Origin: Calditrichales bacterium MX18-03
Lineage (GTDB): Bacteria; Bacillota; Clostridia; Lutisporales; Lutisporaceae
Direction of reading: 5' to 3'
Assembly: GCA_021083345.1 (NCBI GenBank)
Contig: JAJGRE010000001.1
Span: 1,364,001-1,428,000, forward strand
DNA: 64,000 nt
Shown: positions 49,467-52,316 of the stretch, piece by piece
Layout: every line of letters starts with the position of its first letter
Numbering within the stretch: position 1 is the stretch's first letter
Translations under genes and position numbers: made by a program
Notes under the pieces: model-generated
Database searches by the model: none
Told to the model about the DNA's origin: nothing
The model's input: the letters and a program-made list of their open reading frames with translations, nothing else

Positions 49467-50738
49467 TTACTGATTTTCCTGTTTTTCCTTATACACCTGC
49501 CCTATAGCTTCGGCATATACCGCCATAATGCTTTTTCCTGTTTTCTCAGCTGCCAGCCTGCAGTCTTCATACTCCGGAGAGACTCTGAGCAATGCGCCGT
49601 CATGCCAGCCCAGCTTGCAGCTGATGCTTCCGGCCTTGGTTTCCACCACGGTCTGTGCTCGCTCCAGGATCTCTCTTTCGTAGAGTGCATAACGGATACC
49701 GAAGGTACTGGTATGCTTGAAAACGGCATCTACGATCCCAGACTTTTTCTCCGGACTGCACAGTACCGACAGCCTGACTCCCGGGCGGTTCTTTTTCATC
49801 AGGATGGAAGTATAGCTGACATCCAGGGCGCCCTCCGAAAAAAGCTTCTCCATGGCGTAACCCATCTGCTCAGGGGTCATATCGTCAATATTGGCTTCAA
49901 TGGCTAATACCGAATCTTTTATTTTTTTTTTTGACTCATACAGCATGACGCGGAGAACGTTGGGAATCTCATAGGTTTTCTTACCCAAACCATAGCCGAT
50001 CCTTTCGATGCAGCCTTCACCCAGCGCTCCGAATTCATGGGCCAATGCCTTGGCAATGCCTGCCCCGGTAGGCGTGACCAGTTCAAAGTCCAAGCTGGTA
50101 TAGTATACCGGAACGCCCCTGAGTATCTCCAGTACAGCGGGAGCAGGCAGCGGGAAGGTTCCGTGCTGGCACCTGACAAAACCTCTCGAGAGGGGCAGAC
50201 TGGAAAAAATGATCCGATCGGGCGATAGCTGGTCGATGCATATGGCGGTACCAACAATATCCACAATGGAGTCTACTGCGCCGACTTCATGAAAATGGAC
50301 CTCATTGGCAGGCTTTCCATGAATCTTCCCTTCCGCTTCTGCAATCAAGCGGAAAATATCCAGGCTGATTTTTTTTGTATTGTCATTGAGGCCGCTTTCC
50401 ACAATAAGATGCTCAATATCGTGAAAACTTCTGTGAGCATGGCTGTGTTGATGCTCACCATGATGATGCGCTTCAGAATGGCTGTGTGCATGGACATGAG
50501 GATGCTCATGAATATGTACATGGGGATGCTGATGCTGCTCCTCATCCAACAAGACTTCAAATTGCGTACCTGAGATTCCGTTCTTCAGCCTTTTTTCTAT
50601 TTTCAGCCTGTAGCCTTCAACATTCAGCATTTTCAACCCAGTCTCCAATACGGCAGTATCCGCACCCAGATCAAGCAAGGCGCCTACGGTCATATCCCCA
50701 CTGATGCCTGAAAAGCAATCGAAATATAAGGTTTTCAT
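49467..50738 (-). CDS. larC: nickel insertion protein LarC
   Basis: CTP-dependent cyclometallase that inserts nickel into the pincer cofactor of lactate racemase-type enzymes. Starts YFDCFSGISGDM; a His-rich stretch (about residues 69-105, motifs HPHVHIHEHPH and HSHSEAHHH) likely binds Ni. PTGAGIAKAL and the C-terminal EANIDDMTPEQMG (LarC2) follow. In Lactobacillus the protein is made as LarC1/LarC2 by a programmed frameshift; here both parts are in one frame, 423 aa, joined across an A11 run. Last gene of larE-larB-larC. Confidence 0.92.
   Translation of the reverse strand: MKTLYFDCFSGISGDMTVGALLDLGADTAVLETGLKMLNVEGYRLKIEKRLKNGISGTQFEVLLDEEQHQHPHVHIHEHPHVHAHSHSEAHHHGEHQHSHAHRSFHDIEHLIVESGLNDNTKKISLDIFRLIAEAEGKIHGKPANEVHFHEVGAVDSIVDIVGTAICIDQLSPDRIIFSSLPLSRGFVRCQHGTFPLPAPAVLEILRGVPVYYTSLDFELVTPTGAGIAKALAHEFGALGEGCIERIGYGLGKKTYEIPNVLRVMLYESKKKIKDSVLAIEANIDDMTPEQMGYAMEKLFSEGALDVSYTSILMKKNRPGVRLSVLCSPEKKSGIVDAVFKHTSTFGIRYALYEREILERAQTVVETKAGSISCKLGWHDGALLRVSPEYEDCRLAAEKTGKSIMAVYAEAIGQVYKEKQENQ
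49922..49932 (-). repeat. A11 homopolymer at LarC1/LarC2 junction
   Basis: On the coding strand TCA is followed by eleven A and TAAAAG. In frame it reads Lys-Lys-Lys-Ile; loss of one A yields TAA at once, gain of one A leads to a stop shortly after. A prime slippage site. Confidence 0.8.
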
Positions 50739-50741
50739 CGC

Positions 50742-51488
50742 TTACCTCCTGTTAATCATACTGGCAAGATAACCGGCTCCGAAGCCGTTGTCGATGTTGA
50801 CCACTCCAATACCGCTGGCGCAGCTGTTGAGCATGGTCAGCAATGAGGATAAGCCGCCGAAGTTGGCACCATAGCCCACACTGGTGGGGACGGCTACCAC
50901 AGGGCAATTTGCCAGTCCGGCAACAACGCTGGCCAATGCACCTTCCATACCCGCTACGGCGATAATGACTCTGGCATCCATCAGCTTTTCGGTGTTCATC
51001 AGGAGCCTATGGATGCCTGCAACACCTACGTCATAAAGCCGCTCAACCTGATTGCCGAGAAAATCAGCTGTCACTGCCGCCTCCTCAGCCACGGGTATGT
51101 CGGAGGTTCCGCCTGTCACAATGACGATGCGTCCGGATGCCCGCTCCGTTTCATGCCTTATAACGGTTATGGCTTTCGCCTGCTCATGGTATACCGCATC
51201 GGCTATTGCTGCTTTGACTGCCTCAAAGGTTGCCCCATCCGCCCTGGTGCCCAGAACATTATCATGATGCACCAGCATTTTCTCAAAAATAGCCGTGGTC
51301 TGATCCGGTGTTTTTCCGGCACAATAAATGACCTCACCCTGACCCTTCCGGATTTTCCTGTGGTGATCCAGCTTTGCAAACCCCAAGTCCTCATAGGGAA
51401 GCTTTTTCAATACCTCCAGCGCTTCATTCAAATCTATGGCGCCACTTTTTACCTGCATCAGCAGGTTTGTCAGATGCCTCTCGTCCAT
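50742..51488 (-). CDS. larB: pyridinium-3,5-biscarboxylic acid mononucleotide synthase LarB
   Basis: Carboxylates nicotinic acid adenine dinucleotide in the first step of nickel-pincer cofactor synthesis. The C-terminal half is PurE-like: VTGGTSDIPVAEEAA, VGVAGIHRLL, AGMEGALASVVAGLA and PTSVGYGANFGG. 248 aa. It starts three bases after the larE stop and ends three before larC. The superficial likeness to PurE is structural; purE itself is at 21874. Confidence 0.95.
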   Translation of the reverse strand: MDERHLTNLLMQVKSGAIDLNEALEVLKKLPYEDLGFAKLDHHRKIRKGQGEVIYCAGKTPDQTTAIFEKMLVHHDNVLGTRADGATFEAVKAAIADAVYHEQAKAITVIRHETERASGRIVIVTGGTSDIPVAEEAAVTADFLGNQVERLYDVGVAGIHRLLMNTEKLMDARVIIAVAGMEGALASVVAGLANCPVVAVPTSVGYGANFGGLSSLLTMLNSCASGIGVVNIDNGFGAGYLASMINRR

Positions 51489-51491
51489 GTA

Positions 51492-52316
51492 TTACACCTC
51501 CGTCAATGTCTCATTCAGACTCCCTGTCCGATAACCGGCCAAATCCATTGCCGTATAACTAAAGCCGATCGCCTTAAGCTTGGTATGGATATCCAGCATC
51601 CGTTTCTTGTCAAAAATCCGCTCCATTTCAGCCGGTATAAGCTCAATACGTGCCAAGTTTCCGTGACATCGCACCCGAACCTGCTGGAAGCCTTGTCCCA
51701 TCAGATATTCCTCTGCCGCCTCCACCATGCCCAGCTTTTCGGGTGTAATCCGCTCATAATAGGGGATGCGGGATGCCAGACAAGCCTTGCTGGGCTTGCA
51801 CCAGGTGGGAACCGAAAGCTGCCTGGAAAGGCTGCGGATCTCTTCCTTGCCTAGTCCGCTGAGCTTCAGCGGACTTTTGACACCCAGTTCCTCCAGGGCC
51901 TTCATGCCCGGCCGGTAGTCATTGTCATCCTCCGCATTGGTCCCGTCCACAACAATAGGCAGTCCCTTTGCTGCCGCAATGTCCAGGACGCGGGTAAAGA
52001 TAGCTTTCTTACAGGTATAACACCGGTCCGGAAGGTTGTCGGCAAAGCCGGGTATGGAAAACACATCGGCTTCCACCTGTATGAAGTCAACCCCCAGCTC
52101 CCCGGCATATGCTGCAGCCGAAGCCATCTCTGCAGATGGATTGACGGCAGCCTTGATAGTAACGGCTGCAACCTGTTCCTTCCCGAGGGCATCCACCGCT
52201 GCCTTCAACAGAAAGCTGCTGTCCACCCCCCCCGAAAACGCTACAGCTATCTTGCCGTAAGCTTTCAATCTCTCCTTAAGCACATGCAATTTCTCCAAAT
52301 GTCGTATCCTCCTCAA
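51492..52316 (-). CDS. larE: ATP-dependent sulphur transferase LarE
   Basis: Second enzyme of pincer cofactor synthesis, adenylates and thiolates the carboxylated nucleotide. PP-loop SGGVDSSFLL near residue 30; RCYTCKKAIF; and WCKPSKACLASRIPYYERIT with the Cys that donates sulphur in sacrificial LarE enzymes. 274 aa. It heads larE-larB-larC; the racemase or other LarA-family apoenzyme is not in the window. Confidence 0.95.
   Translation of the reverse strand: MRRIRHLEKLHVLKERLKAYGKIAVAFSGGVDSSFLLKAAVDALGKEQVAAVTIKAAVNPSAEMASAAAYAGELGVDFIQVEADVFSIPGFADNLPDRCYTCKKAIFTRVLDIAAAKGLPIVVDGTNAEDDNDYRPGMKALEELGVKSPLKLSGLGKEEIRSLSRQLSVPTWCKPSKACLASRIPYYERITPEKLGMVEAAEEYLMGQGFQQVRVRCHGNLARIELIPAEMERIFDKKRMLDIHTKLKAIGFSYTAMDLAGYRTGSLNETLTEV

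Follow-up and report, generated by a model that had tools for sequence, protein, structure and literature searches.

A run of eleven A at the LarC1/LarC2 junction of a fused larC gene is probably a retained slippery site of reversed polarity

Introduction

Does a larC gene that is open from end to end, with a run of eleven A at the border of its two halves, make one protein or two? This question is raised by a locus of Calditrichales bacterium MX18-03 (family Lutisporaceae in GTDB), lying in a stretch of 64,000 nucleotides that is called the window here. The lactate racemase of Lactobacillus is reportedly the subject of a study by Desguin et al. (Nature Communications, 2014). An earlier note on the window held that LarC is split by a programmed frameshift in Lactobacillus, that its two parts are fused across the A run here, and that slippage on the run may be another route to the same pair of products, LarC1 and full LarC.

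Among the literature found, frameshifting in the LarC family is treated only by Antonov et al. 2013 (PMC3711429). DUF111 belongs to the four frameshift families that were newly validated in that study, with cassettes that shifted frame at up to 39% in Escherichia coli, and a magnesium chelatase cassette with 11 A reached 63% in the same host. Coding regions are depleted of long A runs; for runs of nine, this holds in a large fraction of genomes (PMC1088944). In lacZ reporters carrying 7-11 A, insertion has at least double the efficiency of deletion (PMC6260861), and the longer the run, the more single-base insertions transcription produces, with an exponential rise in E. coli (to 9) and Buchnera (to 11) (PMC5574713). 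The words "frameshift" and "slippage" are absent from PMC11796402, PMC7583248 and PMC9283937, the available part of the review PMC5009743 names neither LarC nor DUF111, and within the literature searched, which comprised papers accessible without subscription, none was found to describe an A run in a fused larC.

The larC gene and its reading frames

The product of the window gene is LarC: it matches PF01969 (Pfam), which we take to be the family once called DUF111, with 486.1 bits, passes the curated cut-offs of the LarC1 and LarC2 models, and is encoded adjacent to larB and larE (Table 1). The LarC1 model TIGR00299 covers residues 103-266 (214.3 bits, cut-off 90) and the LarC2 model NF052512 covers residues 277-394 (153.8 bits, cut-off 50; both NCBIfam), and the gene has no internal stop, so that LarC1 and LarC2 are fused in the zero frame. 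The A11 run sits between the two model matches. LarC2 alone (6bwo in the PDB, aligning to query residues 275-413) and whole LarC (12bi) have both been solved, which places the run at a domain border. The histidine-rich stretch within LarC1 is possibly a metal-binding or storage segment. Since larC has a single match in the whole genome, there is no separate larC1 gene in this organism.

Table 1. The larC locus in the window (position 1 is the first letter of the window)
Feature	Position	Strand	Basis
larC, 423 aa, LarC1 and LarC2 in a single frame	49467..50738	-	PF01969, 1e-145
A11 run, proposed slippery site, codons 269-273	49922..49932 (T11 on +)	-	sequence; relatives
TAA reached immediately after loss of one A (+1 frame)	49919..49921	-	sequence
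TGA, 8 codons on, after gain of one A (-1 frame)	49897..49899	-	sequence
LarC1 His-rich stretch, about residues 69-102	50433..50534	-	translation
larB	50742..51488	-	NCBIfam NF033503, 295.5 bits
larE	51492..52316	-	NCBIfam TIGR00268, 317.4 bits

The genome thus carries larE, larB and larC, yet no LarA scored above cut-off: the best match to PF09861 reached 21.3 bits (cut-off 23.3), and the LarA model NF033504, a strict model that gives sub-cut-off matches in 2 of 14 control genomes, had no match at E<=0.001.

The eleven A at the fused junction are present as described, in the sense strand of larC. In the zero frame the site reads TCA AAA AAA AAA ATA AAA GAT. With one A less, or after a +1 shift of the ribosome, the site becomes TCA AAA AAA AAA TAA and translation stops immediately; with an additional A, or after a -1 shift, it continues as AAT AAA AGA TTC GGT ATT AGC CAT TGA, which adds eight codons. 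The idea that slippage by one meets a stop at once therefore holds for the loss of an A or a +1 shift and fails for the gain of an A or a -1 shift. The peptide would end in KKK-stop after a deletion and in KKK-NKRFGISH-stop after an insertion, and both products would be of LarC1 size.

Occurrence of the run in the genome and the gene

Within the genome of 4,686,761 bases there are 40 distinct runs of at least nine A, four of which are A11. Only the larC run lies in a sense open reading frame (ORF) longer than 79 aa, the other three having either no sense ORF or sense ORFs of 40 and 79 aa. Genome-wide, no other run of at least ten A lies in a sense ORF exceeding 204 aa. A run of A10 in a 204-aa sense ORF (L287, contig C8 near 113581) is the sole other run of at least ten A within a sense ORF above 79 aa. 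Apart from the larC run, sense A runs reach at most 7 in the 40 non-overlapping window ORFs with at least 150 aa. The window larC has 50% GC, and the window ORFs use AAG (708) more often than AAA (541) for lysine. When the protein was held fixed and its codons were redrawn 4000 times from the gene's own usage, an equally long linker run arose in 0.9% of the redraws; the corresponding P value is 0.009 for the window gene and 0.04-0.54 for fourteen other tested in-frame genes with A8 or longer, most of which fall short of significance when taken singly. By these counts, the larC A11 run is non-random.

Junctions across LarC loci

In 293 distinct LarC loci, the frame and the A run were scored between two conserved asparagines, N260 and N283. 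Copies of the window locus (L003, L281-L283), loci without the junction, and loci identical around it (among them L233, L262 and L308-L315) were omitted before counting. The loci from named organisms are the 80 with the lowest E-values out of 588 and, by that choice, lean towards fused genes; in the broader genome samples the loci given and those fetched were analysed, a subset of all matches, and the split loci of the last sample were chosen from the match list as likely split or larC1-only.

The 293 loci comprise 253 in frame, 38 frame-broken, and two whose linker contains an in-frame stop. Every one of the 38 distinct frame-broken genes needs a -1 shift and none a +1 shift, and their runs are A7 (4 genes), A9 (9) or A10 (25). 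The longest run in the in-frame genes measures 2-6 in 230, 7 in six, 8 in five, 9 in three, 10 in eight, and 11 in the window gene alone. A run of at least seven is consequently found in 38/38 split and 23/253 in-frame genes, and within the window's family 9 of the 11 in-frame genes have junction runs of A8-A11, vs 8 of 242 other in-frame genes, counts that are not independent because many of these genes are kin.

Matches to larC occur in 28 of 151 Lactobacillaceae genomes. All 17 distinct split loci of this family read GAA AAA AAA AAC, with TAA directly after in 15, and they agree with the published DUF111 cluster (PMC3711429). The split ascribed to Lactobacillus LarC is thereby borne out, since the frame-broken genes of this family break at the same junction and carry the run. 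The window A11 occupies the position of the frameshift site in split larC genes.

Other arrangements were also observed. In L044 (Alkalihalobacillus sp.) and L050 (Paenibacillus sp.), which were scored neither as split nor as fused, LarC1 and LarC2 share a frame with a stop between them, and an apparent ribosome-binding stretch and a restart are seen by eye, which makes a third, two-gene arrangement. In four split genes of one family (L201, L221, L222 and L033), A7-TAG is followed by CCCC(C/T)GGGGAGG, possibly a hairpin or a Shine-Dalgarno (SD) element.

The window's family and the phylogeny of frame states

A LarC match is present in 14 of the 22 genomes of the window's family. Nine of the 14 junctions are in frame with A8-A11 (L001, L006-L012 and L028, the A8 of L008 lying about three codons further on), three are split with A9-A10 (L016, L017 and L018), and two are in frame without a run (L013 with A5 and the remote L021 with A3). 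All of these proteins except L021 form a clade of 13 with support 100/99 and end branches of up to 0.56 changes per site, in which nine are in frame with A8-A11, three are split, and one is in frame without the run. The run is thus kept in 12 of the 13, and close relatives do not lack it, a comparison that the earlier note had proposed as a check. The nine in-frame and three split genes, all with the run, have opposite ground frames, which qualifies the notion of an alternative route to the same two products: the slippery site is the same, and the difference is better described as one of ground frame.

Both frame states also meet in other groups. Family f21 has L115 and L137 in frame with A10, beside L165, L215 and L218 split with A9-A10; genus g46 has L014 in frame with A10, L316 in frame without the run, and L208 and L345-L348 split with A9-A10; and among the Lactobacillaceae, the in-frame L236 (A8) stands next to L244, its split sister. 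A tree was built from 47 selected rows (L021 absent; the short L259 omitted from trees); on it the split label changes at least 13 times, eight of these changes being forced by well-supported branches, and the deep forks are weak. Of the Clostridia rows, 24 were grouped together in a 255-row FastTree; this grouping did not hold as one clade in the 47-row tree and was dropped. Placement of the window in Clostridia is suggested by loci of its class (f40), whose junctions are identical to those of records named Clostridium liquoris and Clostridium hydrogenum (L128 and L084; L343 and L039).

Codon evidence for conservation of the run

Codon-usage and redraw tests covered 223 in-frame genes, as against the 253 of the run-length survey, and AAA expectations were computed from each gene's own codon usage. 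In the 11 genes whose linker contains KKK, AAA encodes 31 of 33 lysines where 16.8 are expected (z 5.2), and in the linker lysine runs of the window's family it encodes 23 of 25 where 11.3 are expected (z 4.9), pooled values that ignore kinship. Linkers with KK and not KKK have AAA in 24 of 36 positions against 22.3 expected (z 0.6), and runs of two or more lysines elsewhere in the same genes have it in 794 of 1308 against 757.6 (z 2.2), pooled in the same way. Because the excess attaches to KKK linkers, the DNA run seems to be preserved, and not the lysines alone. Linkers contain KKK 11 times in 6,078 codons, vs 11 times in 85,767 codons elsewhere, and runs of at least nine A occur 12 times in 7,173 linker codons vs once in 97,479 codons of the rest. 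Of the in-frame genes with GC of at most 0.42, 99 of 109 have no run of eight; since low-GC genes mostly do without the run and the window gene has balanced composition, AT-richness is insufficient to account for it.

Stimulatory elements and out-of-frame stops

The sequence downstream of the window junction folds no better than its shuffles (z 0.13). A consensus fold of 16 of the 17 Lactobacillaceae split sites reached -0.31 kcal/mol, with compensatory change in 0 of 6 pairs, and mean fold z values against 60 plain shuffles each were -0.6 for the 38 split sites and -0.4 for the 17 in-frame sites with A8 or longer. Individually, 7 of these 55 sites have a fold z below -2 and five have an SD-like stretch; neither downstream structure nor an upstream SD-like element forms a common pattern across the 55. 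Programmed -1 ribosomal frameshifting with stimulators was accordingly set aside as a classification. The absence of a common element means that little beyond the run argues for programming, and it fits simple poly-A slippage, whether by the polymerase or by the ribosome. An immediate out-of-frame TAA is found in L001, L115, L137 and L236; otherwise, in the 15 in-frame genes compared, out-of-frame stops follow the run at much the same distance as they do at other places in the gene. Close stops were dropped as a general argument for slippage, their distance being ordinary in most in-frame genes.

Stand-alone larC1 genes

Nine larC1-only loci (L349-L354, L357, L358 and L364) were picked from the match list, a selection and not a census, in seven genomes of Clostridium-family bacteria. 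Their ORFs end within about 20 residues of the junction, and a tblastn search with one LarC2 query (E<=1) found no LarC2 in the 3.2-3.4 kb around them. The model scan covered seven of the nine (L349-L354 and L357), each of which matches the LarC1 model, whereas no LarC2 match appeared (E<=1e-5). By model, larE follows L349 and larB lies at L353, and similar ORFs are seen by eye at others. Each of the seven genomes also has a full larC match elsewhere, which makes a separate LarC1 product plausible. A run shorter than seven in 230 of 253 in-frame larC genes argues that LarC1 is not generally needed.

Interpretation and alternatives

The reading that we favour, at a probability of roughly two in three, is that A11 is a slippery site of the LarC recoding family that has been retained with its polarity reversed, full LarC being the zero-frame product and LarC1 the product of slippage. 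The zero frame would yield full-length LarC, the nickel insertion enzyme for the nickel-pincer cofactor. RNA polymerase would add or drop an A in part of the larC mRNAs, and alternatively or additionally the ribosome may slip -1 on A_AAA_AAA, with the same product as an insertion. The slipped products would stop 0 or 8 codons past the run, at 272 or 280 aa, and would be LarC1-sized proteins that keep the histidine-rich part and lack LarC2. Split relatives would use the site in the opposite way, LarC1 being their zero-frame product and slippage making full LarC. Established at the level of sequence comparison are the position of the run, its conservation, the occurrence of both frame states, the -1 direction in all split genes found, and the AAA excess. 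We infer a useful slippage frequency in this bacterium, mainly transcriptional, and, more tentatively, a use for LarC1; the gene probably still makes two products.

A bolder proposal, which we regard as tentative, holds that larC is indifferent to frame: the run would give LarC1 and LarC from either ground frame, indels would be tolerated, and LarC1 would be a needed partner, for example a nickel-storing or complex-tuning subunit. The gene would then switch between split and fused states in evolution through one-base indels in or near the run, and lineages without the run would do without LarC1 or have a separate larC1 gene.

The intermingling of split and in-frame genes on the 47-row tree also suits a less favoured account, a relic, in which a split ancestor needed slippage, a one-nucleotide change joined the halves, and the run persists unselected with slippage as mere noise. 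We consider this unlikely, if still the most serious of the rival accounts. The window A11 is indeed a Lactobacillus-like A10-TAA site plus one A, and the loss of the run in L013 and L316, both in frame, and its shortening to A8 in L236 are as expected if slippage is dispensable there. Against a relic, the run outlives deep divergence in the window's clade despite the silent option of AAG, and AAA is in clear excess in the lysine runs of that family; a long in-frame run should, moreover, cost full-length product, so that neutral persistence seems unlikely.

Very improbable, in our estimate, is a plain codon or composition effect, that is, a lysine-rich linker in AT-rich genomes with no slippage function. 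A variable and charged linker, P values of single genes that are modest for the most part, and a slight AAA excess in KK runs elsewhere speak for it; opposed to these points are the GC content of the window gene, the preference of window ORFs for AAG, the low-GC genes that have no run, and the concentration of KKK in linkers. Similarly small is the chance of an assembly error (a true A10, and hence a classic split gene) or of strain-level variation in DNA length (phase variation). Homopolymers of eleven are error-prone and mutable, and A10 would yield the split form seen in Lactobacillaceae, but eight other in-frame run genes of the family hold the frame with differing run lengths and flanks. 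If A10 were correct, larC would fall into the split class and the two-product reading would survive.

Should the reversed-polarity reading be true, one slippery site would serve both polarities across a gene family, which would account for the repeated splitting and fusing of larC and would raise the question of a role for LarC1 itself in nickel-pincer cofactor synthesis. Annotation and heterologous expression of an "intact" larC would then overlook a second product.

Comparison with known systems

The nearest relative of the proposed site is the LarC/DUF111 recoding family (Antonov et al. 2013, PMC3711429), the same gene family with a slippery site between two annotated genes, for which fused homologues were also noted. 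Equating the DUF111 site with the LarC1/LarC2 junction rests on the split loci of the present survey. In DUF111 and the larC1-larC2 genes of Lactobacillus, the parts are out of frame and slippage produces the fusion, whereas in the window they are in frame and slippage would produce the short form. The window larC has the poly-A run of this family; its halves are joined in the zero frame and do not need the -1 shift of the split members, so that we class it as a reversed-polarity variant within a known recoding family, and not as a split member or a new kind of system, as far as its sequence tells.

An in-frame gene whose slippage yields a shorter second product is known from dnaX of Thermus thermophilus, with nine A, and in this it resembles larC; dnaX is unrelated, and both of its products are established, whereas LarC1 is here predicted (PMC1088944). 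A further parallel is tssM (PMC4256274): Citrobacter rodentium tssM1 has A11 with about 20% transcriptional slippage that makes the long form, and Yersinia pseudotuberculosis tssM3 has a poly-A run with 15-25% slippage that makes a truncated form. As proposed for larC, tssM combines an A11 run (in tssM1), two length variants per gene, and both polarities within one family. It is an unrelated gene, whose slippage was demonstrated by mass spectrometry of RT-PCR products and by blots, in contrast to the sequence-derived case of larC; by analogy, it is the closest precedent for the use of both polarities.
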